A DNA stretch of 35,036 bases from Bacteroidota bacterium (lineage in GTDB: Bacteria; Bacteroidota; Bacteroidia; Palsa-948), in NCBI GenBank assembly GCA_004297845.1, contig SCSP01000397.1, positions 1-35,036 of the forward strand, in the 5' to 3' direction. Position 1 is the first letter of the stretch. Each line of letters starts with the position of its first letter. The notes beneath the pieces are model-generated. The model had not been told where the DNA came from. It did not search any database and saw only the letters and a program-made list of their open reading frames with translations. Positions 1-32,338 of this stretch are shown piece by piece. Made by a program: the position numbers and the translations under genes.

Positions 1-605
1 TCGTTAAGGTCAAGTGCAATCACTTTTGCTCCGACTATTTTTGCGATGAGAGCGCCATAAACTCCCACACCGCCCACACCGATCACAATGGCCAGATCAC
101 CCGCTTCCAGTTCTGATTTTTTCACGACCTGATATGGAGTGGAAATTGCATCGGCAATCACTGCCAGATGCTCCAGCGGATATTTTTTCAAGACATTGTC
201 GGGGACCGGGCATAAAAATTTTGAAGGCACTTTGATATGAGAAGCAAAACCGCCCTGAAAATCATTCCCCGGCATCATTTGGCTTCTGCAAATGTTGCTT
301 CTTCCTTTTTTGCATAATTCGCACTCTCCGCAAGGAAGCACTGCCGGAATGATCACGGATTTATTCAACCATTTTTTATCTCCTCCAATTACTGTTCCGC
401 TAATTTCATGACCGAGTGTGAGGGGTAAGGCATGTTTTGTCTGAACTCCGTAGTGCCAGAAGCTGAGGTCGGTATGGCAAACTCCGCAGCCGGCAATTTT
501 AACTAAAACCTCTCCCTCTTTCAATTCAGGGTAATTTTCTTCAGTAAGTTTGAACCCTTTGTCTGGTTCAATCATTTGCCATTGATATAGTTTATTATTG
601 TTCAT
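1..605 (-). CDS. had: 6-hydroxycyclohex-1-ene-1-carbonyl-CoA dehydrogenase-like alcohol dehydrogenase (3' end cut by window)
   Basis: Zinc- and NAD-dependent medium-chain dehydrogenase, here only its first 201 residues. I see the catalytic zinc motif GCGVCH (Cys43) and GHE (His66-Glu67), four structural-zinc cysteines (92, 95, 98, 106) and the Rossmann motif GVGGVG near residue 178, followed by an Asp at the end of the next strand, which favours NAD over NADP. The stretch HALPLTLGHEISG and the later MPGND.QGGFASH pattern resemble Had of the Thauera benzoyl-CoA pathway, which oxidises 6-hydroxycyclohex-1-ene-1-carbonyl-CoA to the 6-oxo compound. The start is ATG at 605. It follows the PanE-activase gene on the same strand after 200 bases. 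The presence of bcrABCD in the window supports the assignment. A generic zinc alcohol dehydrogenase is the alternative. Confidence 0.75.
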   Translation of the reverse strand, partial: MNNNKLYQWQMIEPDKGFKLTEENYPELKEGEVLVKIAGCGVCHTDLSFWHYGVQTKHALPLTLGHEISGTVIGGDKKWLNKSVIIPAVLPCGECELCKKGRSNICRSQMMPGNDFQGGFASHIKVPSKFLCPVPDNVLKKYPLEHLAVIADAISTPYQVVKKSELEAGDLAIVIGVGGVGVYGALIAKIVGAKVIALDLN

Positions 606-805: not shown

Positions 806-2626
806 TCAAACAAATTCGGTTGAACTCTTTCCCTGTTCAGTTTGTTTTATGAATGATACTGATTGTGTTTTTGCTATTAGTGCAGCTCCATAAGACACAA
901 CATACTGTGGTTCTTCCAAAACAACCACCTTCTGATGAAATTTTTCTTCGAGAAGCGTTTTAAGGAACGGATGATGTGCAATCACTCCTCCAATCATTAC
1001 TACAGGAACCGATGGGTCAATTCTCATTTTTGCCACACGATTTCCGATAGAGAGATAAATTCCTTTAGCCAGATTATCAATCGGCACTCCGTCAAAAATC
1101 CATTTCATGATTTCTGTTTTTGCGAACACGGTGCAAAAACTGTTCAACTCCTGTTTGTATTCCGATTGAGAAGCAAGGCGGCTCATTTCTTTTATGTCAA
1201 GTCCCGCACGCTCGGCAATTTCAGTAAGGAACGCCCCGGTCCCTGCTGCGCATTTATCATTAAGATAAAAGTTCTCCACCCTCCCTTGTTTATCGCAGCG
1301 AATTACTTTGATGTCTTCTCCGCCTATGTCAAGAATGTTTTTTTCTCCATGCAATAGTTCGTTCGCTCCTTCGGCAGCGCAGTTGATTTCTGTTTTCACA
1401 ATGTCAGCGTCTGGAAAGTTTTTTCTTCCGTAGCCTGTAGCACAGGAAAATTTCACGGGAAATTCTCCGTGGATGGCATTAATAATGTGCTTTGCTGCCA
1501 CCTTGTCCTTGTTCAGTGTTTTCAGTATGTATCTGAACACAATGTTTTTATCTTCATCAATAACTGTGAACTTGGTATATGCCGAACCTAAGTCTATTCC
1601 CATAAAACAATTTCCTTTTGGACTTTTTTGTGTTTTCAGATTGAGTTTTGATTTTTGTCCGGTTATTGCCGGTGAAGAAACCTGTGATAGAAGATTTTTC
1701 TGTGTCATGGCTTTCACCATATTCACCATGGAAAGGTTGAGGGGTGTGCGGATATAATGTTTTCTCCCGTACTCCACAATTTTTCCGTTCAGGTAATCAA
1801 TCTCCGTTTCCCGATTATTCATTAAATCTCCGGCAAGAGAGGGGTAATGATTGCCTCCTTTTTTCAGATATCGGAGACAATTTCTTATAAAGTCGTCCGG
1901 GAACCGAATTTTTTCTGCTTCGGCAACCTCAACTGCTTCTTCAATAATTTGTTCGACTAATTCAATCGTATCGGGAAAAGCCATTGCTTCCGCCATTGTG
2001 AAGCGACCGATCCCGCAGAGCGCGCTGAGCGATGCATTGAGAATAGTTTTTTCCCATGTGCGCTTTGCTAATTCAAACGATGAAATTGATTCTGTTTGAA
2101 GTTGAACGCTGTTCAGCAGAGAAGAAATTTTATCTGCAACATTTTTTTTGCGCTCGTCAAGCGAAGCAATATAATTTGGCGGATTGAAAAAAGTAACCTT
2201 TGCCGTGTTTGGCGCAGAAAGATTTCCTGCAAAATTGATGACCATCCTCGCAATTCTGCTTTCTCCGAGTTTTTCCGAAAGCATATTCTCCACATCAATT
2301 CCATTTTGAGCGGAAATAAAAAATGAAGTATTGTTTTCAGAAATTTCTTTCAAAACACTTTCCACCTGATAGGTTTTCAGTGAAATGAAAATATAATCCG
2401 GATTTTTCTGAAGAAGTTCCGCTCCGCTGAAATAAATATTTTCAAACTTCGCTTTCTTTTGAATTGCATTTTCAAGCAGGATTCCTTCATTCTTAATCTG
2501 GTTGGTTTTTATTTTGTCATTGTCGCAGATCAACACATCGCAGCCCGCCTCCCGAAAATGTACAGCAAGGATCATCCCTACGGGACCCAGCCCGATGATT
2601 CCAATGCGTATTTTTTTTTCACTCAT
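806..2626 (-). CDS. Fusion: ketopantoate-reductase-like (PanE/ApbA) domain + BcrA/BcrD/HgdC-type 2-hydroxyacyl-CoA dehydratase activase
   Basis: A 606-residue two-domain protein. Residues 1 to about 312 form a complete 2-dehydropantoate 2-reductase fold: nucleotide motif GLGPVG (12-17), QNG (107-109), a catalytic-type lysine in WEKTILN (Lys193), and TEIDYLNG with Glu275. After a linker (about 315-337) comes an ASKHA-type ATPase: MGIDLGSAYTK (phosphate 1), LDIGGED, then two cysteines, KCAAGTG (Cys459) and FCTVFA (Cys498), that in HgdC/BcrA/BcrD hold a [4Fe-4S] cluster at the dimer interface. This family uses ATP to push low-potential electrons into a partner iron-sulfur protein. The start is taken at ATG 2626; an in-frame TTG at 2647 would overlap the porin gene. 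The gap to the porin gene is 10 bases. The likely partner is the HgdB-like protein at 5945-7159. The role of the reductase domain is unknown. Confidence 0.85.
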   Translation of the reverse strand: MSEKKIRIGIIGLGPVGMILAVHFREAGCDVLICDNDKIKTNQIKNEGILLENAIQKKAKFENIYFSGAELLQKNPDYIFISLKTYQVESVLKEISENNTSFFISAQNGIDVENMLSEKLGESRIARMVINFAGNLSAPNTAKVTFFNPPNYIASLDERKKNVADKISSLLNSVQLQTESISSFELAKRTWEKTILNASLSALCGIGRFTMAEAMAFPDTIELVEQIIEEAVEVAEAEKIRFPDDFIRNCLRYLKKGGNHYPSLAGDLMNNRETEIDYLNGKIVEYGRKHYIRTPLNLSMVNMVKAMTQKNLLSQVSSPAITGQKSKLNLKTQKSPKGNCFMGIDLGSAYTKFTVIDEDKNIVFRYILKTLNKDKVAAKHIINAIHGEFPVKFSCATGYGRKNFPDADIVKTEINCAAEGANELLHGEKNILDIGGEDIKVIRCDKQGRVENFYLNDKCAAGTGAFLTEIAERAGLDIKEMSRLASQSEYKQELNSFCTVFAKTEIMKWIFDGVPIDNLAKGIYLSIGNRVAKMRIDPSVPVVMIGGVIAHHPFLKTLLEEKFHQKVVVLEEPQYVVSYGAALIAKTQSVSFIKQTEQGKSSTEFV

Positions 2627-2636
2627 AGTTATTTTT

Positions 2637-4055
2637 TTATACGCCAATCACCCATTGCATGATAAACAGGTTATTAAAAATCCGATTCTGACCGATGGGC
2701 TTGGGCGATAAATTTGTTTGAAAAGAAAATTTTATTGCAGAACGGATATCCATCCAGTAAACGGCACCTGCCGTCCAGCGTGTTTTTGTTACATCCCATA
2801 AGGCAAAACAAGGTGTGTTCAGCACATCGTATCGTAAAATGTATTCTGTGTTTTTTATGAATTTTCTTGAAGCATCGGGACGATAGGAAACAGTAAAAAA
2901 ATATGTTTGACTTTCATTCTTAAAACGATACGTGGAATCACTCAGGTTAACATCTTCTGCGGGCACACTAAGCGTGAGTATAGGGTCGGCTTTGTAATAC
3001 ACTTTATCCGCTGTAATCACGTTGTATTGCCCTTTGATATCAATCGTCCCTTTGATGGGTTTGATGTAATCATGAAAAGAAATATCAACGCCATAAAGCA
3101 GGGCATCCACTCCTGAATAGGAGGTTGCATCTTGTCCGACTTTAGCCCGCTGACCGAACAATCCTATTTCCAAAGTTGAATTTGGAACAGGCAGCAAACC
3201 AATTCTTCCTCCTGCGGCTTTGTTTTTATTATTATCAATCAAGTTTGAATAAGAAAGTTTTCCCGCATCTGATCCGGATTCAATCAGAGAGGGTCCGTTG
3301 GAAACAGATAACGCATAGTGGATTTTAAATTTCCGAATGGGAATTTCTCCGCTTGCCTGAAATCCAAAATCTACTAAAGGAATTGCCGCATCAGCGTGTC
3401 CCATTCCCAGCGGAGCATCGGGCAACTTATTTTGCCAGGGGAGATGAAGCCGTTCAGGATAAATGCCAAAAGAAGCCGGAATCATTCCACCGGTAATGGT
3501 CAAATAGGGATTAAAATAATAAACCATGTTTGCATAATAAAGCATGATGCCCGCCCCGTTGCTTGTTGCAGTTGCTGCAGAGGTAGAGGTAGAGGTGGAG
3601 GCGGAGGCGCCTCCGTGATTATGTCCGCCTGAGGATGTTCCTGTTGACGCAGTTGCAGACTGATTGGAATGTAAATGGCCTCCTCCCGCGCTAAGATGCA
3701 TGTGTAGCACAAAATATAACCGCTTGTCAGGTTGATAGAGAAATACGGGCATGAATCCTGCTTCAAAGCCGGCTGAATCGAATTTACTTCCCATGATTAT
3801 GTTAGTAAAAGCAGATCCGGTGAAAAGAAATTTTTTTCTTTCGCTTTGGGTTGTGTCGTTCCGGCTCTCAGGAGAAGAGCAACATTCAGGCAGCGGAGCA
3901 GAAGAAGATTCTTTTTTATTCTTCTTAATGGAAACAGTGTCTGTATTTCCGGACTGGGCAAGGCAGTAGGCAGCAGGCAACAGGCAGAAAGCACTAATGA
4001 TCAAAATCTTCAAATCAAAAGGTGAATTTTTTAGATATGTGTTTTTTTTCAGCAT
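2637..4055 (-). CDS. Outer-membrane beta-barrel porin-like protein with a His/Ser/Thr-rich loop
   Basis: 472 residues with a Sec signal peptide (about 1-35, ending YCLAQ). The body alternates aromatic and glycine residues as in outer-membrane barrels and ends in an aromatic/hydrophobic segment. A low-complexity insert at about residues 125-170 is rich in Ser, Thr and Ala, with histidines (HLHS, HNHGG), and might bind metal. The middle and C-terminal parts are clearly homologous to the porin at 22575-23861: both have G.Y.ERLH, NKLPD.PLG.GH, YAL.VSNGP, KA.GGRIG.LP.PNS.LE.G and G.IDIKGQ in the same order. It sits 9 bases after a small lipoprotein gene and 10 before the PanE-activase gene, so it is probably co-transcribed. 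Substrate unknown; uptake of an aromatic acid or handling of a metal are both guesses. Confidence 0.7.
   Translation of the reverse strand: MLKKNTYLKNSPFDLKILIISAFCLLPAAYCLAQSGNTDTVSIKKNKKESSSAPLPECCSSPESRNDTTQSERKKFLFTGSAFTNIIMGSKFDSAGFEAGFMPVFLYQPDKRLYFVLHMHLSAGGGHLHSNQSATASTGTSSGGHNHGGASASTSTSTSAATATSNGAGIMLYYANMVYYFNPYLTITGGMIPASFGIYPERLHLPWQNKLPDAPLGMGHADAAIPLVDFGFQASGEIPIRKFKIHYALSVSNGPSLIESGSDAGKLSYSNLIDNNKNKAAGGRIGLLPVPNSTLEIGLFGQRAKVGQDATSYSGVDALLYGVDISFHDYIKPIKGTIDIKGQYNVITADKVYYKADPILTLSVPAEDVNLSDSTYRFKNESQTYFFTVSYRPDASRKFIKNTEYILRYDVLNTPCFALWDVTKTRWTAGAVYWMDIRSAIKFSFQTNLSPKPIGQNRIFNNLFIMQWVIGV
3579..3612. repeat. Short hexamer repeat inside the porin gene
   Basis: Imperfect hexamer repeats of the type AGGTAG, drifting to AGGCGG, encode the Ser-Thr/Ser-Ala run on the minus strand. 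Such tracts change length easily, so this loop may vary between strains. Confidence 0.6.
3957..3992. repeat. GGCAGTAGGCAGCAGG-type simple repeat within the porin signal-peptide codons
   Basis: Near-tandem 7-mers of the form GGCAGYA/GGCARCA. On the minus strand they are translated as the hydrophobic core CLLPAAYCL of the porin signal peptide. The same type of word recurs in the signal-peptide codons of the next gene upstream (about 4428-4450). Confidence 0.55.
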
Positions 4056-4064
4056 AATTTATTC

Positions 4065-4505
4065 CTATTCCGAAAGCGGTATTCTCACAGTGAGATTGTC
4101 ATCGCGCTGGGAACGCTTTATCTTCAGTGGCATTCCGCCTGTTACGCGAGCGCCCAAAGCACTCCATGTACTGTCAAATGCCACGGCATATACAAAGTAT
4201 TTTCCGGTTTTCAGCCCTTCTATTTTAATGAACTCCTCACGCGGGGTGCCGACAAAAAAAGCATCATAATCGCTTGGTTTTGTGCCGGGGAATTCATCTG
4301 CATTATATTTCAGAAAAACCGTATCAGGGTATCCGATATGATTGATGATGACATTCCCGTGATGTTCGGAATAGACCGTGAGCGTGGCGTTTCCACCCAA
4401 GCCCGCATCCTTGCGGCAGGATGAAATCAGCAGGCAGCAGGCAAAAGCCAGAAATATGGGAAGAATGCATTCCTCATTCCATTTTTTATTCGTAATTCGT
4501 TTCAT
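4065..4505 (-). CDS. Small lipoprotein of unknown function
   Basis: 146 residues. The signal peptide ends in a lipobox LISSC (Cys30), so it is an anchored envelope lipoprotein. The mature part is about 115 residues of predicted beta character (TLTVYSEHHGNVIIN, GKYFVYAVAFDS, NLTVRIPLSE), resembling small Ig-like or carboxypeptidase-regulatory-like domains; I do not recognise a named family. It lies between the cytochrome/propeller gene (15-base gap) and the porin gene (9-base gap), which suggests one envelope complex. The first codons (MKRITNKK) fall inside a dispersed repeat, so the N-terminus may be recently acquired. Confidence 0.65.
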   Translation of the reverse strand: MKRITNKKWNEECILPIFLAFACCLLISSCRKDAGLGGNATLTVYSEHHGNVIINHIGYPDTVFLKYNADEFPGTKPSDYDAFFVGTPREEFIKIEGLKTGKYFVYAVAFDSTWSALGARVTGGMPLKIKRSQRDDNLTVRIPLSE

Positions 4506-4516
4506 TCGTAATTCGT
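4488..4516. repeat. Direct repeat ATTCGTAATTCGT x2 spanning a start codon
   Basis: Two identical 13-mers (4488-4500 and 4504-4516) separated by TTC. The second copy lies just beyond the stop of the propeller gene, and the pair covers the ATG (4503-4505) of the small lipoprotein. This resembles the short dispersed repeats common in Bacteroidota genomes. Confidence 0.7.
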
Positions 4517-4520
4517 AGCG

Positions 4521-5948
4521 TTAATGATGATGCCCCATGATTGCCCCAAAATACGGGTCAACCGAGAGTTCCGGTTTTAAGCCGGGAATAAGTTCAAGCG
4601 TGTTTAAATCAATGGCAGTCATATATCCGTTTCTTCCCGCACAAGCCGAAGAATGATGCGGGGGCGGTCCATCGCTTGCAATATTTCTGTGCAGTATCCA
4701 AACTTTTCCTCCATTCACATCAGGTATAACTCCGTGCGGCTGCCAGCCGGTATGTATGTTTTTTATGAAGGCATGTGTCTTGGCATTGATGATGGTAACA
4801 CATCCCATTTTTCCCGGGATAGTAACATCATCATTGGGAGAGATGACAAAAAGATAATCGCCTGCATAGTGCGGCTCCTCGGGAGCTTTGCCGGTGGGGA
4901 CAGCAGTTATCAGAGCATCGGTAGAAGCATTAAAGAATCGCACCTCATTAGATCCCACACAACTAACTACATATTCCGTTCCATCGTCCGAAAAGTGAAT
5001 TTCATGCGAATTGTAACCCGGCAGAATGGATAGTTGATTAAAATCAGGATTATAAATATCTGTAACATCAATTTTATAAATGAAATTTCCGGGCTGAGTG
5101 GTTACATAGAGGTAATTTCCTTTCATGCCGGTTCCGTGAGGATATTGCAGCAAGCCGGTACCCTGGTATTTTATCAGCAGGGTCATGTTTTCCAAATCCA
5201 CCACGGCAATGGAGCCATTTGCATTCCAATCCACTACGAAAGCGCGTTTTCCATCCGGAGCGATTTCAAATGTGCTCCATTGTCCGGATCCAATATTGCA
5301 TGTGCCAATTAATGCACCATCGCTGGCGCGGAATTTCTGGAATACATTGCCTGCAAAAAAACTTACATAGAAATATTTTTCATCAGGCGAGATATTAATA
5401 AAGTGAGGGGATTCAATGGAGGGGCTGGTTCCTATATCAACACAACGCATGATTAGCCCGGTTTCGGCATCCATGATGTAAATATTGTCGCAACCTTGGT
5501 TAACCACAAACATTTTAGTTCCCTGATAATTGTTCCATTTTATCAGTCCACTATTGGCGGGCGCTCCGTTGCTTATCCAATTTTTTATAGCAATCACTTC
5601 GTCTCTTGCCATCGGAGTTTCATTGGGCGGCATGGAGGGAGGAACCATAGGCCCTAAATCACTGTATGTATTTATAAAATAGGTTAGGAAACTATAATCG
5701 GGACGATAAGGAATAACAGCCGTATTTCCATAGCGGCTGCCATTAAACAAACTTGTCCATGTTTCGAGCGAAAGCCCTGCGGCCGCATCTTTGCTTTGTT
5801 CCGTATGACATCCGGTAGTGGCACACTTGTTCAACATGATTTTTCCCACTTCGGGCGGATAGCCCTTGTAATCATTGCCTTCTTCTTTTTTGCATGCGGA
5901 AAAGAAAATACAAACAACAGGAAGTAGTATGTATACTATATTCCTCAC
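4521..5948 (-). CDS. Lipoprotein with N-terminal cytochrome c-like domain and YVTN/YncE-type beta-propeller
   Basis: 475 residues starting at GTG 5948, which overlaps the stop of the upstream gene. The lipobox is FFSAC (Cys19). Next is a haem-attachment-like motif CATTGCH (Cys42, Cys47, His48), which has a four-residue spacing (CX4CH) instead of CXXCH, with downstream MVPPSMPP methionines as possible axial ligands. From about residue 130 there are repeated propeller blades (KMFVVNQGCDNIYIMDAETG, SPDEKYFYVSF, PDGKRAFVVDW, PHGTGMKGNYLYVTT). The protein ends in GHHH after an earlier PPPHH, so a metal-binding tail is possible. It is probably an envelope redox or ligand-binding protein. It links the cytoplasmic CoA genes upstream with the lipoprotein and porin genes downstream. 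Function unknown. Confidence 0.75.
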   Translation of the reverse strand: MRNIVYILLPVVCIFFSACKKEEGNDYKGYPPEVGKIMLNKCATTGCHTEQSKDAAAGLSLETWTSLFNGSRYGNTAVIPYRPDYSFLTYFINTYSDLGPMVPPSMPPNETPMARDEVIAIKNWISNGAPANSGLIKWNNYQGTKMFVVNQGCDNIYIMDAETGLIMRCVDIGTSPSIESPHFINISPDEKYFYVSFFAGNVFQKFRASDGALIGTCNIGSGQWSTFEIAPDGKRAFVVDWNANGSIAVVDLENMTLLIKYQGTGLLQYPHGTGMKGNYLYVTTQPGNFIYKIDVTDIYNPDFNQLSILPGYNSHEIHFSDDGTEYVVSCVGSNEVRFFNASTDALITAVPTGKAPEEPHYAGDYLFVISPNDDVTIPGKMGCVTIINAKTHAFIKNIHTGWQPHGVIPDVNGGKVWILHRNIASDGPPPHHSSACAGRNGYMTAIDLNTLELIPGLKPELSVDPYFGAIMGHHH

Positions 5949-7161: not shown

Positions 7162-8910
7162 TTAGACTTCAACTGGTTTTCTCGATAAATTATTTTCCGT
7201 GTCGAGCTTGATGATATATACTTCCTCGCTTACCTTGTTTTTAGATCCGTATAGATTTTCAATGTGCGCCTTATATGTTTCCATCACCTTTTTAGGAGCA
7301 ATTTTCATGGAAGGTGTAAGTGTATTATTTTCAATGCTCAGCTCATCGTCAATGACCATGGCGTATTTGATTTTCGAAAACTTTTGTCCCAGGCCGCAAT
7401 TGGCATCGTGCAGGCAACCCCGCAGGCATTTTCCCAGATCGTTAATGCTTCGCGGACAGAAGCAGCCTTCTTCGGGCGATAGCTCATAATCAGGGTGATC
7501 CAGCATTTTTTTGTTCGGGAATAGGATGGCAACTGGGTACTCGCTCCCTCCGCCTACAACCATGGCGTACATTACGTAATGGCATTTGGTCTGGATCAGA
7601 CCTTCCAGTTCGGTGGGCACTACTTTTTCCCCATTCGTAAGTTTGAAGATGCGGTCTTTACGCGAGATCAGTTTTAACCCGGAGGCGGTGATTTCCCCCA
7701 CATCCCCGGTGCAATACCATCCATCCTCTGTAAATATATTTTTGTTTGCCTCGTCATTTTTGTAATACCCTTTCATCACATTCGGTCCCTTGATCTGAAT
7801 TTCGCCATCAGCCGCAATTCGTATACTCACTCCTGGAATCGGCTTCCCAACTACACCGCTTACGCGCTTGATAGTTGGATCGGTAAGTGTGCAACAAGGC
7901 GAAGTTTCTGTGAGTCCCCATCCTTCGATCACCGGAATACTTCGTTTTTCAAATTCGTCAGATATGTTTTTTGGAAGAGCAGCAGCAGCGGTAAAAACAA
8001 ATTTCAGGCTTGAATGAAAAAAGGTTTCTTCAGCGGAATTGTCGGATTTTGTAAGTTCTATCAGAGATTGGTAAACTTTAGGGACGCTGAAGAATAGCGT
8101 TGGTTGCACAAGTTTCCAATTCTCCAAGATTTGCGTTGGGTCTTTGCCATATCCGGACTCAAGAAACATAGTGGCGCCCGTATAAAGTGCCGTGAAGCGT
8201 TCAAAAATTCCACCGAAACTATGATGCCAGGGCAGGTATGAGAGAAATCTGTCGTTCTCGTTGAGATTCCAGATACGCTCAATGCCTGCCTGTTGAGAGA
8301 GAATGTTTTTGTGTGTGAGTTGTACACACTTGGGAACCCCCATAGTCCCCGATGTATACATGTTCAAACAAATTTCGTCCTCCCCGGCATCAAAGTTCAG
8401 TGAATTATTTTTATGGATATTAGGTTTTGTTAATGCTTCAAATGAATGTAGTTTTTTATGTTGTTTATCAATTAGTGTGTCAAAAACGAAAATTTCTTTT
8501 AAAGGCATAGACGGATTAACTCTTTCAAGTTGCAAGGCTCCGGCAACAGCCAGAAATTTTGCGTCTGAATGCCGGATAAGTTGCTCTGTTGTATCCGCAT
8601 GGAAGTAGGCAAAGATCGGCACACTTATACCTCCCGAAGCCATTACAGCCAGTTCCAGTTCCAGCATTTCCAGACGGTTGGGAGAGTACACAACCATTTT
8701 GTCTCCTTTCCTGAATCCGAAATCCTTGAGATTTGCAGCGATATTCTGTATGTCCTCAAAAAGTTTTTTCCATGAAATTCCCTCGTATGCTTCGTTTTTC
8801 TTTCCACTGTATGCCATTCTGTCTGCAAAGCGCAGCGCGTTTCGTTCCAACATCAGGGCGATGTTTGGAATTATTTTTCCTAAATCCTTATCTGATTCAA
8901 GGTGTCTCAT
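7162..8910 (-). CDS. AMP-forming acyl-CoA ligase with a Cys-rich C-terminal insert
   Basis: 582 residues of the ANL superfamily: phosphate loop YTSGTMGVPK (185-194), GWGLTETSPCC (330-340), GWYCTGD (397-403), and C-terminal LTPSMKIAPK with the likely catalytic Lys536. The overall pattern is closest to fatty-acid (FACS-type) ligases and less like short benzoate-CoA ligases. An unusual segment at 483-505 carries five cysteines (CFC...C...C...C). ATG 8910 is chosen because it gives a TGATG overlap with bcrD; the upstream in-frame extension would run 54 bases into bcrD. Its position between bcrD and the HgdB-like gene points to activation of an aromatic or alicyclic acid feeding the benzoyl-CoA pathway, but the substrate cannot be read from the sequence. 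Confidence 0.8.
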   Translation of the reverse strand: MRHLESDKDLGKIIPNIALMLERNALRFADRMAYSGKKNEAYEGISWKKLFEDIQNIAANLKDFGFRKGDKMVVYSPNRLEMLELELAVMASGGISVPIFAYFHADTTEQLIRHSDAKFLAVAGALQLERVNPSMPLKEIFVFDTLIDKQHKKLHSFEALTKPNIHKNNSLNFDAGEDEICLNMYTSGTMGVPKCVQLTHKNILSQQAGIERIWNLNENDRFLSYLPWHHSFGGIFERFTALYTGATMFLESGYGKDPTQILENWKLVQPTLFFSVPKVYQSLIELTKSDNSAEETFFHSSLKFVFTAAAALPKNISDEFEKRSIPVIEGWGLTETSPCCTLTDPTIKRVSGVVGKPIPGVSIRIAADGEIQIKGPNVMKGYYKNDEANKNIFTEDGWYCTGDVGEITASGLKLISRKDRIFKLTNGEKVVPTELEGLIQTKCHYVMYAMVVGGGSEYPVAILFPNKKMLDHPDYELSPEEGCFCPRSINDLGKCLRGCLHDANCGLGQKFSKIKYAMVIDDELSIENNTLTPSMKIAPKKVMETYKAHIENLYGSKNKVSEEVYIIKLDTENNLSRKPVEV

Positions 8911-9749
8911 CAGGCAGCCACTGCTTGTTTTTCTTTTAATTTGATATGACGGAAACCACCCCATAACGCTGCCCCTATGGCTCCTGCATATCCCGCATCT
9001 GGATGAGTTTTTATTTCAAACTTCTTTCCGGTTTCCTTTAATTGCTCTTCAATGGCCTGAAGCATACCTTTGTTCAGCGCCATGCCTCCCGTAAGCACAA
9101 TAGGGGATTCCCCCTTCAAAGAGCTTAGTAGTTTGATGATTCTGTTCGCAATGGAAAGATGAATCCCTTTAATAATATCAGGAGTGGTGATTCCGCGTGA
9201 TACCATATTGATTACATCCGTTTCGGCAAGCACGGCACAAATTCCCGAAGATATCTCCGGATTATTCGACATGAGTGAAACGCCCCCAACTTCCTCTATG
9301 GATAATCCCAGATATCTGGAAATATTTTCAACGAACTGCCCGGATCCGGAAGCACATTGTCCGGTCATTTTATAGTCCTGCACCCGCGCTCCTTCGGAGA
9401 TTTTAACAGCGCGGACATACAACGCGCCCATATCCACCACTGTTTTTGCATCGGGGAAAAAGAAATTTGCTCCTTTTGCATGTGTGGTCATTCCGTAAAA
9501 ATGTCCGCGTTTGCGTTTTACCAAATCCCCTTCTCCTGTAGAGGCCAAATAGGCAACATCCTCATACTTTAAGTTGTGTTTGGCAAGCATGGCTTGAATC
9601 ATTTCTTCAGCCACTTGTGATGGATTACGTTTGCGGATTTTCTCTGTGTGTTTATCGAGCAGTTTAGGCAACTCGGAGTAATCAACCAGCACCAATTTGA
9701 TGAAGTTACTTCCCACATCAATGCCCACTGTGTACAACGATGTTTTCAT
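8910..9749 (-). CDS. bcrD: Class I benzoyl-CoA reductase, ATPase subunit D
   Basis: 279 residues, an ASKHA ATPase of the BcrD/BadG type: VGIDVGSNFIK, VVDMGAL, GQCASGSGQF (Cys132) and SGICAVLAETDVINMVSRGI (Cys171), then VLTGGMALN. The two cysteines bind the [4Fe-4S] cluster shared with BcrA. QCASGSGQF and AVLAETDVINMVSRGI are characteristic of BcrD and set it apart from BcrA. The length matches known BcrD (about 280). ATG 9749 is chosen over 9770 because 9768-9775 is the putative -7 promoter box. It is the first gene of a long minus-strand unit, overlapping the ligase by one base (TGATG), and diverges from the histidine kinase. With BcrA it would hydrolyse ATP to drive electrons into BcrBC. 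Confidence 0.9.
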   Translation of the reverse strand: MKTSLYTVGIDVGSNFIKLVLVDYSELPKLLDKHTEKIRKRNPSQVAEEMIQAMLAKHNLKYEDVAYLASTGEGDLVKRKRGHFYGMTTHAKGANFFFPDAKTVVDMGALYVRAVKISEGARVQDYKMTGQCASGSGQFVENISRYLGLSIEEVGGVSLMSNNPEISSGICAVLAETDVINMVSRGITTPDIIKGIHLSIANRIIKLLSSLKGESPIVLTGGMALNKGMLQAIEEQLKETGKKFEIKTHPDAGYAGAIGAALWGGFRHIKLKEKQAVAA

Positions 9750-9767
9750 AGTAGAATTCTTGTCGAA

Positions 9768-9811
9768 CAAAATTGACCTAATTGCTCAGATTATACTATG
9801 ACGTGTATCAT
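9768..9811 (-). promoter_or_regulatory. bcrD promoter with CRP/FNR-type palindrome
   Basis: Palindrome CTATGA-N6-TCATGG on the plus strand, with core TGA-N6-TCA at 9799-9810 and centre 9804.5. On the minus strand the box CAATTTTG (9768-9775) lies 30-37 bases from the centre, and the bcrD ATG 55 bases from it. The same geometry is found upstream of bcrA and bcrC. On the other side, TAGTTCCT (9834-9841) occupies the mirror position facing the histidine kinase, but as a -7 box it is weak. Confidence 0.7.
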
Positions 9812-12802: not shown

Positions 12803-14224
12803 TCAAGCCGCTTCCTTTTTTTTCTTCGCAGAGGGAAGCTCTGCTTGTATGTTCCTTCTGGCAAACATGGCTCCGCCAAGCGCGCCCATAAAAATGGAAT
12901 CTGTATGGATATTTATTCTTATGTTGTCTCCGTAATTATCTTTTACCAGTTGAGTCAGGTATTTGATGACAGCCGGATTTCGGGCAACACCTCCTGTAAA
13001 CGTAAATTCATTGAACACTCCCCCCGAGCGTGCAATGAGCGACATGGCACGCATGATGATGGCTTTATGAAGCCCCCCCAGAATATCTTCCCGCTTTTCA
13101 CCCAGGTTGGTGAGTTCCCGGAGTTCAGCGCCTGCAAACACCGTACATGTTGAGCAGATGGTTACTTCTTTTTCGGCTTTCATGGCCATGGGTCCAAGTT
13201 CATTGAGTGAAACGCTCATTTCGTCCGCAATATATCCGAGGTAACGCCCGCATCCTGCTGCACAGCGATCATTCATCTGGAAACTTGTAACCAATCCATA
13301 TTTGTCAACCTGAATGGCTTTGGTATCTTGACCTCCTATATCAAGTACGGTTCTGGTCTCCGGAAAAACCGCATGCGCTCCAAAAGCATGGCATAAAATT
13401 TCAGAGCGGATGCAATCCTGGGGGAAGGGCAGGAGCGCCCGACCATACCCTGTGCCGGTCATATTGGTAATTTGAAACTCCAATTCAGCAATTTCATCAA
13501 TATGCTCACGGAGGGTTTCAGAAACATGATCGAAATTTCCTTTCAATAAATTCATTTCTGCGTCAAAATTCACACTGGTGTTATCCGCTGCGGTCTCCGG
13601 AAGGTTTTTGTATTTTTCTTTCAGTTCATCCATTGCTTTGTGAATCAACTCCTGAAAGTTAAATTGTATACGTTGATTTTCTGCCGGACTGATGCTTTTG
13701 TCCCATACGGTCATAAGTGGTTCAAAGAGCGACATATCCAGTTTATTCACTTCTTCGTTGTATTTTTCCGAAACAATATCCCGGAAGAATTGATTTTTTG
13801 ATCCAAGATTGTTGTACAGGTAATCTTTTTTTATTACGGGCTTAAACGACTTACGGATATTCCGCAGATGGCCAATGATCTCCTCTTGTTTTTTCTCGTC
13901 CTTGAAAAATTCTTTGCATGTTCTTAGCAACTCTTCTCCAAGTTTATCCAGGCGAACCTTGAACTGCTCATACTGAAAAACACTTTCCAGGTCCGTTAAA
14001 TATTTTTTGTATTCGGGCTTTGCTTTAATTTCCTCCTCCAGTTTTTTTTGCAACACTGAAAAACGAGCGTTGTAGATCGCTTCATCGCGTGCTATATCCG
14101 CTGCAACTGCGTAATTTGCACGGGTATTGGTTATTCCACGTCCGATAATTTCATCTTTTTCATTGATGATCACCGCTTTTGAAGTGGTGGAACCAAGATC
14201 CACACCAAGATAATACTTGCCCAT
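12803..14224 (-). CDS. bcrA: Class I benzoyl-CoA reductase, ATPase subunit A
   Basis: 473 residues, the BcrA/BadF type: an ASKHA ATPase with VDLGSTTSKAVI (phosphate 1, 8-19), GRGITNTRANY, then a long helical insert (about 50-250) that BcrA has and BcrD lacks. The second half has GTGYGR, VLDIGGQDTK, NDRCAAGCGRYL (Cys321) and ICSTCTVFA (Cys357/Cys360), with GGVARN near the end. The cysteines form the [4Fe-4S] site at the BcrA-BcrD interface. It is slightly longer than the Thauera protein (about 440), mainly in the insert. It is separated from bcrD by about 3 kb and from bcrBC by 13 kb, unlike the compact operons of Proteobacteria. It has its own promoter (14244-14291). Confidence 0.92.
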   Translation of the reverse strand: MGKYYLGVDLGSTTSKAVIINEKDEIIGRGITNTRANYAVAADIARDEAIYNARFSVLQKKLEEEIKAKPEYKKYLTDLESVFQYEQFKVRLDKLGEELLRTCKEFFKDEKKQEEIIGHLRNIRKSFKPVIKKDYLYNNLGSKNQFFRDIVSEKYNEEVNKLDMSLFEPLMTVWDKSISPAENQRIQFNFQELIHKAMDELKEKYKNLPETAADNTSVNFDAEMNLLKGNFDHVSETLREHIDEIAELEFQITNMTGTGYGRALLPFPQDCIRSEILCHAFGAHAVFPETRTVLDIGGQDTKAIQVDKYGLVTSFQMNDRCAAGCGRYLGYIADEMSVSLNELGPMAMKAEKEVTICSTCTVFAGAELRELTNLGEKREDILGGLHKAIIMRAMSLIARSGGVFNEFTFTGGVARNPAVIKYLTQLVKDNYGDNIRINIHTDSIFMGALGGAMFARRNIQAELPSAKKKKEAA

Positions 14225-27585: not shown

Positions 27586-28887
27586 CTACCCTGCTACTGT
27601 TTCCTGATTCAAAATAAATTTTCGCTGTTCCAACATCTGGAAATATGATTCCAAACGGTTTTTGATATTCGCATAGGAAAAGTAACGCGGATCTACCAGG
27701 TCGCTTTCGATGAAACCAACTGGAACACCGGTGCGTTGTTCAATTTCACGCATAATCATAAGTTGGCCTGCAGAAAATGAGTTGCAACTTTTGATCGAAT
27801 TAATCAGAAAGCCGTCCGCTTTGTATTCCTTTACATATTTTTCAAGCAATCCTACACGCTGAGGTAAGTTCATATTCGTATAACAACCCATGCAATAGCG
27901 CGACAAACTTTCAAGTGGTTCTTTCGGATCATGGCGGAAACCCAAGTCGTAAACTCCCCCCACTTTTGTATAACTGGAAGCGACAATCACTGCACCCATG
28001 TCATAAAATATTTTCCAGAACTCGCGAAAATTTGTCCAGTTGGGCGGACCTTCTACCACCAAACGGAATTTCTGTTCTTTCATTTCTCCTTCAGGAGTTA
28101 CGGGTCCAAGTCCGAGTTTCATTCGTTGCTGAACTTCGTTCCATAACTCGGTATAATATTCAACGGATTCTTTTGTTCCGCGAAAGGCGGTAAAGATGGG
28201 ACCGATGTAATAAACCCCCGCAAAATACGCATCAATGGGCGAAGGAATATTTTTTGCGCTTTCTAAAATCTTCACAAGCAAATCCTCTGCCTTAACAGAA
28301 TTCTCCATCATCCCGGACAAACGTGCCTGATTATATTTTTTTCCTGATACTTTTTCCATTTTCGGAATCACCTCTTCTTTCAATTGCTTCACCATGTAAT
28401 CAATTTGCTCCTTGGTAATTTTGCCGTCTTCCTGATAAGGCGTGTGCAGCATGGCAACAGGCACTCCGGGATATAATCGTTCAAGATTTTCGAACCATTT
28501 CAGAAAAGTAAAACACCCTGTGTAGCTAAGTAGAAGTAAATCGGGCGAAGGAAGTTTTTCTCCTGTGGGACCAATGTTTCCATTCAGCATCATGCCAATG
28601 TCGCATTTCACATACGTGCAAACATCTTCTGAGAATCCTATCTTTTCCGCATCCTTAATGTAGGATCCTGATTTTTTACGCATACCCGATTGCAGTGCAT
28701 TTATTTCAGGATAAACAGGCAGCATGTCAAACGAAAGAATAAGTTCGGTAAGATTTCCAGGGACGAATGTGTAAACTACTTTTTTCCCGAGCTCTTTTGC
28801 TTTGCTGAGATCCTGAAATTGTTTTGCAAGCATATCTTTCTGAAGATTCATGCTTTTTTCTTTGATTGCTTCTTTAGGGTCTGTCAT
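27586..28887 (-). CDS. bcrB: Class I benzoyl-CoA reductase, subunit B
   Basis: 433 residues, the expected BcrB/BadE length. The candidate iron-sulfur cysteines are Cys90 (EDVCTYVKCDIG), Cys125 (SYTGCF), Cys332/Cys335 (YCMGCYTN) and Cys368 (IKSCNSFSAGQ). Highly typical stretches include PSPIDAYFAGVYYIGP, VVEGPPNWTNFREFWK, VASSYTKVGGVYD and FIESDLVDPRYFS. With BcrC it forms the site that accepts electrons from BcrAD and reduces benzoyl-CoA to cyclohexa-1,5-diene-1-carbonyl-CoA. It lies 85 bases downstream of bcrC and probably shares its transcript. The gap carries a dispersed hairpin repeat. Confidence 0.93.
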   Translation of the reverse strand: MTDPKEAIKEKSMNLQKDMLAKQFQDLSKAKELGKKVVYTFVPGNLTELILSFDMLPVYPEINALQSGMRKKSGSYIKDAEKIGFSEDVCTYVKCDIGMMLNGNIGPTGEKLPSPDLLLLSYTGCFTFLKWFENLERLYPGVPVAMLHTPYQEDGKITKEQIDYMVKQLKEEVIPKMEKVSGKKYNQARLSGMMENSVKAEDLLVKILESAKNIPSPIDAYFAGVYYIGPIFTAFRGTKESVEYYTELWNEVQQRMKLGLGPVTPEGEMKEQKFRLVVEGPPNWTNFREFWKIFYDMGAVIVASSYTKVGGVYDLGFRHDPKEPLESLSRYCMGCYTNMNLPQRVGLLEKYVKEYKADGFLINSIKSCNSFSAGQLMIMREIEQRTGVPVGFIESDLVDPRYFSYANIKNRLESYFQMLEQRKFILNQETVAG

Positions 28888-28972: not shown

Positions 28973-30136
28973 TTAGACCCAGAGTTTTATTGAATCCGAA
29001 AAAGTTCCTGCCTGTTCTTTGATAACCTTAAACTGACCTGTGTTTTCGTGAAACTGAAAATTAATATGCGGAATGCCTGCAGCGTCACATTCTTTTTGCA
29101 TGAGCGGCTGATCCAGCAGGGCAGGATCGCAAAAACTTGCTGCAGAAAAAATTATTCCGTCAGCGTTCCTTTTTTTAGCCAGCTTAACAAGTCGTTTTTC
29201 TTTCGGATTACCAACATCGTAATAGGCAGAAGAAAAAGTGCTCTGATTGATATATGCGTTGGCGAGAGCGGCAAGTGGCGACTCAAAATTTCCCTGAATA
29301 TCTCCTTGTATCCATCGGGAGCCAAGCATGAAATCATCCTCTACAATATAACAACCCGCCATCTCAATGGATTTTATCAAACCGATAGGAGGCTGTTCAC
29401 AAAAGGAACCCGTTACAACAACCCGGATGTTGTCCATCGCTTCACCACGCTCTTTGCTGATATGATCAACAACTTGTTCAAGAATTTCGTTATGTTCTTC
29501 AACAGGAATTGTAATCCCTGCTCTGAGAATATAATAGGTTTCAACAGCAGATAATCGCCACGGAAATTCCTGACGGATGTCATAAATCTTCTCAATAAGT
29601 TTTCTGTTTTTGTTATAGAGTTTGATGGCTTTATTAAGGGATTCATCCGTTACTTTCACTTTGTTTATTGCAAACATATCTTCCATCACCTTTTCCATTT
29701 CTTGCGTATAAAAAAGACCTCCGATGAGCGGATCAAAATTTTGCGGGTAATCAAAGTAGCGCTGAAATTTTCCTTTCTTGGAAAGCTTGAACATTCCTGA
29801 AAGGTTTCTCACACAATCGCAGATAGCAGGGAACATAAAACCGTCAAAATCATGCAAATTCTTATCCAGAGCCATTTCTATTATTCCACGCGGAAGATGG
29901 CAGATGTAAGATTGGTAATAAGCATCTCCCTTGATGATCTGCTTCCTGTCGCCTGCCCCCATAATCCCAACGGGAATTCCATTGGCGGCATGTATAATCT
30001 CCCGGGGAACATAGATGGGAAGATACCCGACTATAATCCTTGTCTTGTCTTTTGATTTCCAGTTTTTCGCTCCTTTAAAATTCAGGTCGAAGGCTAATTC
30101 TTCGCATTCTTTGAGGAGGGTATCAAGAGGCTTCAT
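28973..30136 (-). CDS. bcrC: Class I benzoyl-CoA reductase, subunit C
   Basis: 387 residues from ATG 30136, the usual BcrC/BadD size. Typical blocks: YLPIYVPREIIHAANGIPVGIMGAGD, GDAYYQSYICHLPRG (Cys79), FMFPAICDCVRNLSGMFKL (Cys106/Cys108), YFDYPQNFDP, and FSAASFCDPALLDQPLM near the C-terminus. A longer ORF begins at 30166, but that start lies upstream of the putative -7 box at 30152-30159, and the extra ten residues have no counterpart in known BcrC, so 30136 is preferred. It is the first gene of the bcrCB unit and diverges from mocA. It forms the substrate-reducing BC module with BcrB. Confidence 0.93.
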   Translation of the reverse strand: MKPLDTLLKECEELAFDLNFKGAKNWKSKDKTRIIVGYLPIYVPREIIHAANGIPVGIMGAGDRKQIIKGDAYYQSYICHLPRGIIEMALDKNLHDFDGFMFPAICDCVRNLSGMFKLSKKGKFQRYFDYPQNFDPLIGGLFYTQEMEKVMEDMFAINKVKVTDESLNKAIKLYNKNRKLIEKIYDIRQEFPWRLSAVETYYILRAGITIPVEEHNEILEQVVDHISKERGEAMDNIRVVVTGSFCEQPPIGLIKSIEMAGCYIVEDDFMLGSRWIQGDIQGNFESPLAALANAYINQSTFSSAYYDVGNPKEKRLVKLAKKRNADGIIFSAASFCDPALLDQPLMQKECDAAGIPHINFQFHENTGQFKVIKEQAGTFSDSIKLWV

Positions 30137-30151
30137 TTCTGTTGTTTTGAG

Positions 30152-30225
30152 CAAAGTAACTTCCATGCCTCATATAATACTATGATATGTATCATATTTT
30201 ATAGACTATCAGGCAAGTAGTTTCG
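30152..30225. promoter_or_regulatory. Two-way promoter region for bcrCB (-) and mocA-xdhC-SDR (+) around a CRP/FNR-type palindrome
   Basis: The central palindrome ATGATA-TG-TATCAT (30182-30195, centre 30188.5) contains TGA-N6-TCA. On the minus strand TTACTTTG (30152-30159) is 30-37 bases from the centre and the bcrC ATG 52. On the plus strand TAGTTTCG (30218-30225) is likewise 30-37 bases from the centre and the mocA ATG 54. One symmetric site could therefore activate both directions. Confidence 0.7.
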
Positions 30226-30242
30226 TAGGGAAATAATTTATC

Positions 30243-30830
30243 ATGGAAGAAACCTATGGTGTGGTGATTCTTGCAGGCGGGAAGTCGGAGCGTATGAATT
30301 TTCCGAAGGTATTTTCAAATTTCTCAGGGAAGACATTTTTGGAAACAATAGCCGAAACTTATTTTAACGCGGATATAAAAAACAGTTGCGTGGTGATTAA
30401 TGAGAAATTCAGTGAAGGCTGCTGGGAAGAAAAAATCCGCTTGGTAAGGCCATTTGTTTCATCAATAATAAAAACAGATTCTAACCTCGGAAGATTTAAT
30501 TCATTAAAACTCGGAATTAACAAACTGCTTTCCTCTGACTTTGTTTTTATACAGAATGTTGATAATCCTTTCGTTGATAAAGGCATTATTCAGAGTTTAC
30601 AGAAGAACAGGTATTCTATCGGATACACGCAGCTTTTTTATCAAGGACGAAAAGGCCATCCGGTGTTAATTTCAAACAGGATTGCTTGTCATCTTAATTC
30701 CATTCAAGGCAGTGAAAATAATTTAAGAGACATTTTGAGTGAATTTCCAAAGATAGATGTGGAGGTCGATGACAAAAGAGTTCTTGCCAATATCAATACA
30801 AAAGAAGATTACGAGGAATATATTTTTTGA
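30243..30830 (+). CDS. MocA/MobA-like molybdenum cofactor nucleotidyltransferase
   Basis: 195 residues of the NTP_transf_3 fold: N-terminal LAGGKSERMNFPKV (nucleotide-binding LAGGxSxRMxxPK), the QNVDNPFV region where MocA/MobA have an Asp-containing metal site, and GRKGHPVLIS (MocA-like RGxPVLF). Next to XdhC it is more likely MocA, which makes molybdopterin cytosine dinucleotide for xanthine-dehydrogenase-family enzymes, than MobA. The 4-hydroxybenzoyl-CoA reductases belong to that family. It lies 6 bases before xdhC and shares the divergent regulatory region with bcrC. Exact nucleotide specificity cannot be read here. Confidence 0.75.
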   Translation: MEETYGVVILAGGKSERMNFPKVFSNFSGKTFLETIAETYFNADIKNSCVVINEKFSEGCWEEKIRLVRPFVSSIIKTDSNLGRFNSLKLGINKLLSSDFVFIQNVDNPFVDKGIIQSLQKNRYSIGYTQLFYQGRKGHPVLISNRIACHLNSIQGSENNLRDILSEFPKIDVEVDDKRVLANINTKEDYEEYIF

Positions 30831-30836
30831 TTAGAC

Positions 30837-31625
30837 GTGAAAAACATCTATGAAAAAATAATTGAAATTCAAAAGGGCGGTCAGAATGCCGTTGTCTGCA
30901 CTATTGTAAACACAAAAGGAAGCACTCCCAGAAAAACGGGAGCTAAAATGATCGTGTACGCAAATGGTCAAATTTTTGGAACAATTGGAGGCGGAGAACT
31001 GGAAAAAGCAGTAATAAACAATGCGCTTGAACGAATCAAAGAAAACGAACCAAAAATTTTTCGCCACGATCTGTTGCATCAGCACGGTATGTGCTGCGGT
31101 GGAACCGTGGATATATTCGTTGAGCCGGTTATGAAAAAAAGGAAACTATATATTTTTGGAGCAGGACATACCGGAAAAGCGCTTGCCAAGTTTTCCGTTG
31201 ATCTTGATTTTGAAACTGTATTGATCGATGATCGGAAAGAATATTTAGAAGATTTTAATATTGCAGGGGTAAATAAAATGCGCCTTCCGTTTGCTGAGGC
31301 ATTGCAGCTTCTTCCTTTTGATGAGCAGACCTATATATGTATTATGACCTATAGCCATCCTGTGGACAGAAATATTCTTGCCTGCTGTCTGAAGAAGCCT
31401 TTTGCCTATCTCGGAATGATCGGCAGCAAGAGAAAAGTAGAGATGACAAAAAAAATGTTTTCAGACGGGCTGAATATCTCCGAACAGGACTTGGAAAAGG
31501 TGGATATGCCGATGGGGATTGATATAAAAGCGGAAGGGCCGGATGAGATTGCATTAAGTATTCTGGCTAAATTAATAGCTGTGAAAAACAACGTAACTAC
31601 ATGGGAAAAAGAATTGCAATTGTAA
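30837..31625 (+). CDS. xdhC: XdhC/CoxI-family molybdenum-cofactor insertion protein
   Basis: 262 residues from GTG 30837. The N-terminal CoxI domain has NTKGSTPRKTGAKMIV, GTIGGGELEKAV and HGMCCGGTVDIFVEP. The C-terminal Rossmann domain has LYIFGAGHTGKALAKF and the block YSHPVDRNIL, YLGMIGSKRKVEM and PMGIDIKAEGPDEIALSILAKLI. XdhC binds sulfurated Mo cofactor and delivers it to molybdenum hydroxylases. No such enzyme is in the window, so its client should lie elsewhere; 4-hydroxybenzoyl-CoA reductase would fit the pathway. It overlaps the next gene by 25 bases. Confidence 0.88.
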   Translation: MKNIYEKIIEIQKGGQNAVVCTIVNTKGSTPRKTGAKMIVYANGQIFGTIGGGELEKAVINNALERIKENEPKIFRHDLLHQHGMCCGGTVDIFVEPVMKKRKLYIFGAGHTGKALAKFSVDLDFETVLIDDRKEYLEDFNIAGVNKMRLPFAEALQLLPFDEQTYICIMTYSHPVDRNILACCLKKPFAYLGMIGSKRKVEMTKKMFSDGLNISEQDLEKVDMPMGIDIKAEGPDEIALSILAKLIAVKNNVTTWEKELQL

Positions 31626-32338
31626 CTGGCGCTGCAAAGGGAATCGGAAAAGCGGTCGTGGAGAGATTGATCCATGAAAACTATTTTGTAGTTGCAGTGG
31701 ATATTGATGAGAAAAGCGGAAAAAAATTAATTACTGAATTTGATAAAACAAAATTAAGTTTCGCGAAAGCAAATATCTGTAAGGAGAAGATCGTTCAGCA
31801 CCTGTTTGAAAAAATAATCAAGGAATACAAAAAGATTGATGTTCTAGTAAACAACGCAGGAATTATTCGTGACAACATGATTTGGAATATGACTTCAGAA
31901 GATTTTGATCTCGTTATGGATGTGAATCTGAAAGGAACCTGGTTGATGTGCCGTGAAGCAGCAAAAATTATGAAACAGCAAAATAGCGGCCGTATCATAA
32001 ATATTTCTTCCCGTGCATGGCTGGGAAACAGAGGGCAGTCAAATTATTCTGCCTCCAAAGCAGGTATTGTGTCATTGACCAGAGTTCTTGCCCTTGAATT
32101 GGGGAAATATAACGTGATGGTTAATGCTGTTGCACCGGGATTGATTGACACACCTCTCACAGAAAAAATTGAGAAAGAGGTGCTTCTGAAACTTATCGAA
32201 GCGCAACCAACAAAAAAAATGGGTAAACCGGAAGACGTTGCAAATGCAGTTTCATTTCTTGCTTCAGAAAATACCCGGTTTATTACAGGACAAACAATTT
32301 ATATAGACGGGGGGAAAAGCATTGGGGCGGGATTATGA
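31601..32338 (+). CDS. Short-chain dehydrogenase/reductase (FabG-like)
   Basis: 245 residues of the classical SDR family: TGAAKGIG (cofactor motif), VDID at the end of strand 2 (acidic, favours NAD(H)), NNAG, catalytic Ser in INISSRAW, YSASK (Tyr/Lys) and a C-terminal YIDGGKSIG. It could oxidise a 3-hydroxyacyl-CoA or an alicyclic alcohol. Its position after mocA-xdhC, with translational overlap, places it in the bcr-linked regulon; a step after ring reduction, such as 3-hydroxypimeloyl-CoA oxidation, is possible but not shown. Confidence 0.82.
   Translation: MGKRIAIVTGAAKGIGKAVVERLIHENYFVVAVDIDEKSGKKLITEFDKTKLSFAKANICKEKIVQHLFEKIIKEYKKIDVLVNNAGIIRDNMIWNMTSEDFDLVMDVNLKGTWLMCREAAKIMKQQNSGRIINISSRAWLGNRGQSNYSASKAGIVSLTRVLALELGKYNVMVNAVAPGLIDTPLTEKIEKEVLLKLIEAQPTKKMGKPEDVANAVSFLASENTRFITGQTIYIDGGKSIGAGL

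Follow-up and report, generated by a model that had tools for sequence, protein, structure and literature searches.

The genes and features analyzed in this study are listed in Table 1. The window, that is, the whole 35,036-nucleotide stretch of contig SCSP01000397.1 from a Bacteroidota bacterium, carries a benzoyl-CoA island in which a ketopantoate reductase (PanE)-like domain and an ATP-dependent activase domain are encoded by one gene, accompanied by a solitary gene for an HgdB/HadB-like dehydratase component. The usual order of genes in islands of this type is bcrC-bcrB-bcrA-bcrD, acyl-CoA ligase, HgdB-like, fusion, thiolase, Had, Oah, Dch, and FadB-like, with MocA, XdhC, SDR, and molybdenum enzyme genes close by. 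The window is a rearranged island, with a three-gene block (2637-5948) inserted between the HgdB-like gene and the fusion, and a metal-efflux block between bcrA and bcrB. The three genes encode a YVTN/cytochrome-c propeller protein, a small lipoprotein, and a porin-like protein; the block recurs in locus L025 (72, 63, and 50% identity, respectively), and the YVTN gene alone is found in L011 and L126. A CusA-like efflux pump (15205-18398) is split, either truly or by a frameshift, into two open reading frames of 425 and 639 amino acids with a 4-base overlap.

Table 1. Features of the fusion gene and of the surrounding island in the window
Feature	Position	Strand	Basis
PanE-activase fusion ORF	806..2626	-	606 aa, ATG at 2626; Pfam, NCBIfam; full length conserved in relatives
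PanE/KPR-family D-2-hydroxyacid dehydrogenase domain (predicted)	aa 7-310 = 1697..2608	-	Pfam/NCBIfam; D-mandelate dehydrogenase structures nearest; residues
Catalytic Lys193 of PanE half	2048-2050	-	
Catalytic Glu275 of PanE half	1802-1804	-	
Linker between the halves	aa 311-336 = 1619..1696	-	sequence unconserved in relatives' alignment; low pLDDT
2-Hydroxyacyl-CoA dehydratase activase (archerase) domain (predicted)	aa 340-586 = 869..1609	-	Pfam, NCBIfam, relatives' alignment; nearest HadI 4eht, MbdQ 9gai
Cluster Cys459 of activase half	1250-1252	-	
Cluster Cys498 of activase half	1133-1135	-	
Had, 6-hydroxycyclohex-1-ene-1-carbonyl-CoA dehydrogenase, truncated by window end	3..605	-	TIGR03201 272.6 bits on 201 aa; full-length relative above cut-off
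Solitary HgdB/HadB-like dehydratase component, 404 aa	5945..7159	-	PF06050; closest to HadB 3o3m_A in both sequence and fold
Acyl-CoA ligase, AMP-forming, with Cys-motif insert in C-terminal domain	7162..8964	-	Pfam
BcrD-like benzoyl-CoA reductase activase subunit	8910..9770	-	TIGR02261 306.3 bits, just below cut-off 312.85
BcrA-like activase subunit	12803..14224	-	TIGR02259 440 bits, cut-off 578
BcrB, benzoyl-CoA reductase subunit B	27586..28887	-	TIGR02260 697 bits, above cut-off
BcrC, benzoyl-CoA reductase subunit C	28973..30166	-	TIGR02263 453 bits, above cut-off
MocA-like, XdhC-like, and SDR genes	30243..32338	+	island companions

The fusion gene is read from 2626 to 806 through 606 codons with zero interruptions. 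All three Pfam domains exceed their gathering cut-offs (ApbA, aa 8-146, 68 bits; ApbA_C, aa 188-307, 102 bits; BcrAD_BadFG, aa 343-585, 127 bits with a cut-off of 31.5), as do the NCBIfam models apbA_panE and CoA_E_activ (for the latter, 179.5 bits with a cut-off of 125.4). The original prediction, made from the sequence of the window, described a complete PanE-like domain with the GLGPVG motif, Lys193, and Glu275, joined in one frame to a complete BcrA/D/HgdC-like ATPase with both cluster cysteines. All these residues are in place, the lysine, the glutamate, and the two cysteines being invariant in relatives, and the join is genuine. A scan of genome contigs identified 25 full-length relatives without breaks (55-78% identity over the best segment); their hosts are Bacteroidota, except for one Ignavibacteria bin. 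In the class of this bacterium, 52 of 395 genomes are carriers, nearly all with the fusion as a single unbroken frame, and a phylum-wide sample of 396 genomes added the closed genome G439, where the fusion is 74% identical. Thus, the proposed search for this domain architecture across genomes shows that it is not confined to this DNA: full-length fusions, mostly 49-78% identical, occur across tens of Bacteroidota and Ignavibacteria genomes, and the hosts are dozens of Bacteroidota, mostly uncultured. A missed stop, a frameshift, or a mis-assembly is excluded by the full-length fusion in the 25 contigs, in most of the 52 carriers, and in the closed genome. An AlphaFold2 model built on an alignment of 34 relatives has high confidence for each half (mean pLDDT 84) and shows a disordered linker (pLDDT below 50 at aa 310-333); it suggests a pair of independent enzymes joined by a flexible tether.

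The PanE and activase proteins are encoded by separate genes in six genomes, adjacent in G042, G219, and G313 and apart in G298, G639, and G517; hence, the fusion is unlikely to be a new electron-transfer device. In the PanE-domain tree, the true split forms make up one clade (support 86) beside the fused clade (support 97), which suggests a single event of either fusion or fission; L117 in this tree is a locus-edge artefact and not a true split, and, with two long-branch fused sequences, the tree is neutral as to the direction of the event.

By sequence, the solved structures closest to the PanE half are D-mandelate dehydrogenases of the ketopantoate reductase (KPR) family (3wfi, 8wl1), and the same group leads the KPR-type entries in the fold search (5x20, TM 0.86-0.87 of the target). 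Five residues, Lys193, Glu275, Asn108, Asn197, and Ser263, are invariant in 78 PanE sequences, so that the 2-oxoacid-binding residues are kept; they correspond to Lys176, Glu256, Asn98, Asn180, and Ser244 of E. coli PanE from strain MG1655. On the other hand, the equivalents of E. coli Asn184 and Asn194, which we take to be pocket residues of that enzyme, are altered in all 78 sequences, to Ser and to Met or Ile, respectively. The residue at the end of the second β-strand (aa 35) is Asp or Glu in 65 of the 78, as in the NADH-dependent relative, and not the NADPH-type Arg (Arg31 in E. coli PanE). The domains and the catalytic Lys/Glu pair of ketopantoate reductase (EC 1.1.1.169) are therefore present without its Asn184/Asn194 and Arg31 features, whereas the KPR-family D-2-hydroxyacid (mandelate) dehydrogenases agree in sequence, fold, and the acidic NADH pocket. 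The PanE half thus looks like an NADH-dependent 2-oxoacid/2-hydroxyacid enzyme whose side-chain pocket is altered, and not like a ketopantoate reductase; if this is right, the automatic label "2-dehydropantoate 2-reductase" for such proteins should be corrected.

In the activase half, Cys459, Cys498, and the ATP motifs G343-D345-G347 and D433-G435 are invariant among relatives; together with scores above the curated cut-offs (PF01869, CoA_E_activ), these are sequence features of an archerase, a class that is defined by a homodimer with one bridging [4Fe-4S] cluster and by ATP-driven electron transfer. HadI is the nearest relative in the profile search, followed by MbdQ and HgdC, and MbdQ and HadI top the list in the fold search. 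This half is likely an ATP-driven dehydratase starter.

The candidate target of this activase is the solitary HgdB-like protein, whose key residues are Cys79, Cys118, Cys346, Ser32, and Glu50. HadB is its best match both by sequence (203 bits; MbdO is next with 166 bits) and by fold (3o3m_A/C, TM 0.88-0.90), with reductase folds scoring nearly as high. The three cluster cysteines and the equivalents of HadB Ser37 and Glu55, presumably the catalytic residues according to the HadBC structure work, are present in all 54 HgdB-like sequences, and T36, S37, V38, E55, and N56 of HadB are retained throughout. In contrast, BcrB, MbdO, and BzdO retain the cluster cysteines and Glu55 and lack T-S-V and N56. 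The score with the class I benzoyl-CoA reductase subunit B model is 172.6 bits (TIGR02260, cut-off 486.55), that with the double_cubane model is 62 bits (cut-off 350), and reductase residues are absent. In the tree, BcrB groups with MbdO (support 97, with long branches) and the HgdB-like proteins form their own clade outside this pair; in view of the residues and of this tree, with its long branches, we reject an origin of the HgdB-like protein as a BcrB paralog.

The only PF06050 proteins are BcrB, BcrC, and the HgdB-like protein in the genome of the window (98.5% complete) as well as in the closed genomes G439 and G639, and no dehydratase beta subunit (HadC/HgdB) was found in any of the three. 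We know of no characterized 2-hydroxyacyl-CoA dehydratase that lacks this subunit, and therefore we class the HgdB-like protein as working like the HadBC type, not as a member of it. Genome G517 has the PanE, activase, and HgdB-like genes and a bzd-type reductase (BzdN and BzdO above cut-off), and in G298 (92% complete) the HgdB-like protein is the only PF06050 protein apart from an N-terminal 86-aa remnant of BcrC, which makes BcrC an unlikely obligatory partner. The simplest reading is that the HgdB-like protein works as a homomeric dehydratase.

The original prediction asked whether the fusion always co-occurs with the solitary HgdB-like gene, and this is nearly so. Among the 395 genomes of the class, the gene is present in 51 of the 52 fusion carriers, and the converse also holds in 51 of 52 cases; the two exceptions are genomes of 82% and 67% completeness, the former (G162) with a diverged fusion and no PF06050 gene. 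The association (p = 5e-62) is descriptive only, the genomes being related. In 43 of 51 cases, the HgdB-like gene is directly upstream of the fusion and in the same orientation, at a distance of at most 700 bases, and in 30 of these the distance is at most 140 bases. The same search found a BcrB match in nearly all carriers, and Had is present in all tested carriers of at least 90% completeness. A 4-hydroxybenzoyl-CoA reductase-like enzyme (best family TIGR03194, 815 bits, below the cut-off of 994) occurs in 24 of 24 tested carriers and in none of 11 non-carriers. In the genome of the window this molybdenum enzyme is encoded on contig C111, and the MocA-like, XdhC-like, and SDR genes are likely involved in its maturation.

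Other members of the islands vary. Some loci (L012, L017, L024, L025, L119, and L120) have an ADP-forming ligase in place of the AMP-forming one; replacement by a non-homologous enzyme argues that the CoA-activating step is retained. The AMP-binding_C_3 domain of the AMP-forming ligase has an insert with a cysteine motif (CxCPR...CLxGC and, in addition, CHY), and in the ADP-ligase loci this domain stands alone as a protein of 150-190 amino acids (L012:9401-9910, for instance) that keeps the cysteines without the segment of the ligase's catalytic lysine, which suggests a separate metal or Fe-S role. An 86-aa BcrC remnant (L121:1219-1479) adjoins an ADP-forming ligase gene, its genome having no other BcrB or BcrC. 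The closed genome G639 has the genes for ligase, HgdB-like, PanE, HcrB-like, HcrA-like, activase, and thiolase in this order, so that 4-hydroxybenzoyl-CoA reductase-like genes lie between the separate PanE and activase genes. In one genome, G517, one PanE copy overlaps (ATGA) an aminotransferase gene matching the HisC equivalog; HisC-type enzymes often take aromatic amino acids. The BcrB and BcrC matches fall in a single 838-aa frame, possibly a BcrC-BcrB fusion, in G319:C7:5728-8067 (L160, L164). A saccharopine dehydrogenase-like gene is recurrent within the islands (L156:14970-16094, L137:5518-6660, L129, L138), and genes for a 2-oxoacid:ferredoxin oxidoreductase, a plausible source of reduced ferredoxin, lie near some islands (L028:18114-20985, L024, L007, L131, L134). 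A second island piece, L123 (G004:C14), combines Had, Oah, and a sodium/solute symporter-like gene with a PanE that is diverged (50%) and stands alone.

We suggest that the fusion protein has two functions in an anaerobic 2-hydroxyacid pathway, a reading that we favor by a small degree and in which all reactions are deduced from the genes. The PanE half would use NADH to reduce a 2-oxo acid, yielding the (R)-2-hydroxy acid, the adjacent AMP- or ADP-forming ligase would convert it to the CoA ester, and the HadB-like protein would dehydrate the 2-hydroxyacyl-CoA to 2-enoyl-CoA after the ATP-driven injection of one electron by the activase half, once per many turnovers. The original prediction offered, as one option, that the hydride-transfer domain acts on what the partner enzyme produces; the close link to the partner's reaction stands, with the direction reversed, since the PanE half most likely works before the partner and supplies the compound from which the partner's substrate is made. 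The FadB-like hydratase/dehydrogenase and the thiolase of the island could then cleave the 2-enoyl-CoA to aroyl-CoA and acetyl-CoA, although both are also required for 3-hydroxypimelyl-CoA and thus their presence is not specific to cinnamoyl-CoA. As every tested carrier has a benzoyl-CoA island and the 4-hydroxybenzoyl-CoA reductase-like enzyme, the best candidate substrates are phenylpyruvate (from phenylalanine) and 4-hydroxyphenylpyruvate (from tyrosine), which would yield benzoyl-CoA or 4-hydroxybenzoyl-CoA via cinnamoyl- or coumaroyl-CoA; 4-hydroxybenzoyl-CoA would be dehydroxylated by this enzyme prior to ring reduction. A sequence from phenylpyruvate via phenyllactyl-CoA and cinnamoyl-CoA to benzoyl-CoA was hypothesized for another anaerobe, the benzene-degrading culture BzS1 (PMC13416013). 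The fusion itself would serve mainly to hold two proteins of one pathway together.

A broader proposal, which we put forward tentatively and expect to fail rather than to hold, is that uncultured Bacteroidota widely possess the whole of a so far undescribed anaerobic route, which leads from aromatic amino acids through arylpyruvate, (R)-aryllactate, aryllactyl-CoA, and arylacryloyl-CoA to benzoyl-CoA and relies on a homomeric one-gene dehydratase started by an activase joined to the dehydrogenase of the pathway. Should the route exist, 2-hydroxyacyl-CoA dehydratase and benzoyl-CoA reductase, both low-potential radical systems, would be linked within one island, anaerobic aromatic amino acid degradation would be defined for uncultured Bacteroidota, and a dehydratase of one subunit would be available as an easier model of a difficult enzyme class.

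The same logic from 2-oxoacid via (R)-2-hydroxyacyl-CoA to enoyl-CoA could apply to a non-aromatic acid, for example, a branched-chain or dicarboxylic 2-oxo acid. The most closely related solved proteins are HadB and HadI, which belong to the leucine route, and KPR-type D-2-hydroxyacid dehydrogenases are promiscuous; nevertheless, the strict tie to benzoyl-CoA islands, with either bcr- or bzd-type reductase, and to the 4-hydroxybenzoyl-CoA reductase-like enzyme makes such a substrate rather unlikely. It is improbable that BcrC serves the HgdB-like protein as second subunit, so that the module would be another catalytic head for benzoyl-CoA reductase: this would account for the missing HadC and for the constant presence of BcrC in typical carriers, but not for G517 with its bzd-type reductase, nor for G298 with its truncated bcrC. 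Slightly less probable again is the idea that the HgdB-like protein and the activase together make up one more ATP-driven reductase, with ring intermediates as its substrates for ring reduction or reductive dehydroxylation. The shared superfamily, the island location, and the nearly equal scores of reductase folds are consistent with it; the dehydratase-type T-S-V/N signature and, with the limited weight that long branches allow, the position outside BcrB and MbdO argue for a dehydratase, and a reductase would leave the 2-hydroxyacid dehydrogenase partner without a role.

Two further explanations concern the PanE half. As the genome of the window encodes no PF08546 protein besides the fusion, this half might be the housekeeping ketopantoate reductase in an accidental fusion; given the altered asparagine positions, the lack of the fusion in most related genomes, and its confinement to the island, we consider this very unlikely. 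The original prediction also proposed that the PanE domain couples NADPH chemistry to the low-potential electron transfer of the activase. The covalent fusion alone speaks for this idea, which the analysis did not support and which has the lowest probability of all: the PanE half contains neither a flavin nor an Fe-S site, and so its hydride-transfer domain cannot supply single electrons to the activase, while the NADH-type pocket in most sequences, the preserved 2-oxoacid-binding residues, the flexible linker, and the separate genes in six genomes also speak against it.

The components of the proposed 2-hydroxyacid pathway are of known kinds. The original prediction knew of no named protein with this domain order, and this agrees with our literature search, in which, with most subscription journals outside its scope, no description was found of the fusion, of the lone HadB-type component, or of their fixed placement in benzoyl-CoA islands; all three are seemingly undescribed.

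Among the closest known systems is the (R)-2-hydroxyisocaproyl-CoA dehydratase of Clostridioides difficile, HadI-HadBC with LdhA, which has in common with the island an activase, a HadB-type alpha subunit with the same three cysteines and T-S-V/E-N residues, and a D-2-hydroxyacid dehydrogenase. Here, however, the dehydrogenase is fused to the activase and belongs to the PanE and not the LdhA family, there is no HadC, a ligase replaces the CoA-transferase, and the genes lie in a benzoyl-CoA island. The phenyllactyl-CoA dehydratase FldABC/FldI of Clostridium sporogenes (cited in PMC13416013), compared by description, is alike in the proposed substrate class and chemistry, but it has two dehydratase subunits and a CoA-transferase and feeds a reductive branch, as opposed to the single subunit, the ligase, and the probable onward thiolysis in the island. 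The D-mandelate dehydrogenases of the KPR family (3wfi, 5x20, 8wl1), closest to the PanE half in sequence and among the closest in fold, share its catalytic Lys/Glu and carboxylate-binding residues; they are free-standing, and 8wl1 keeps the Asn184 equivalent where the PanE half has Ser. Class I BcrABCD, encoded in the same island, and MBR (MbdONPQ) belong to the superfamily of the HgdB-like protein and the activase, but in the HgdB-like protein the residues typical of the reductases are missing, and its score falls well short of the BcrB cut-off. Finally, the double-cubane system DCCP/DCCP-R (6eno, 7yyl) likewise combines one dehydratase-fold protein with its own activase, whereas the HgdB-like protein is below the double_cubane cut-off and its nearest fold is HadB.
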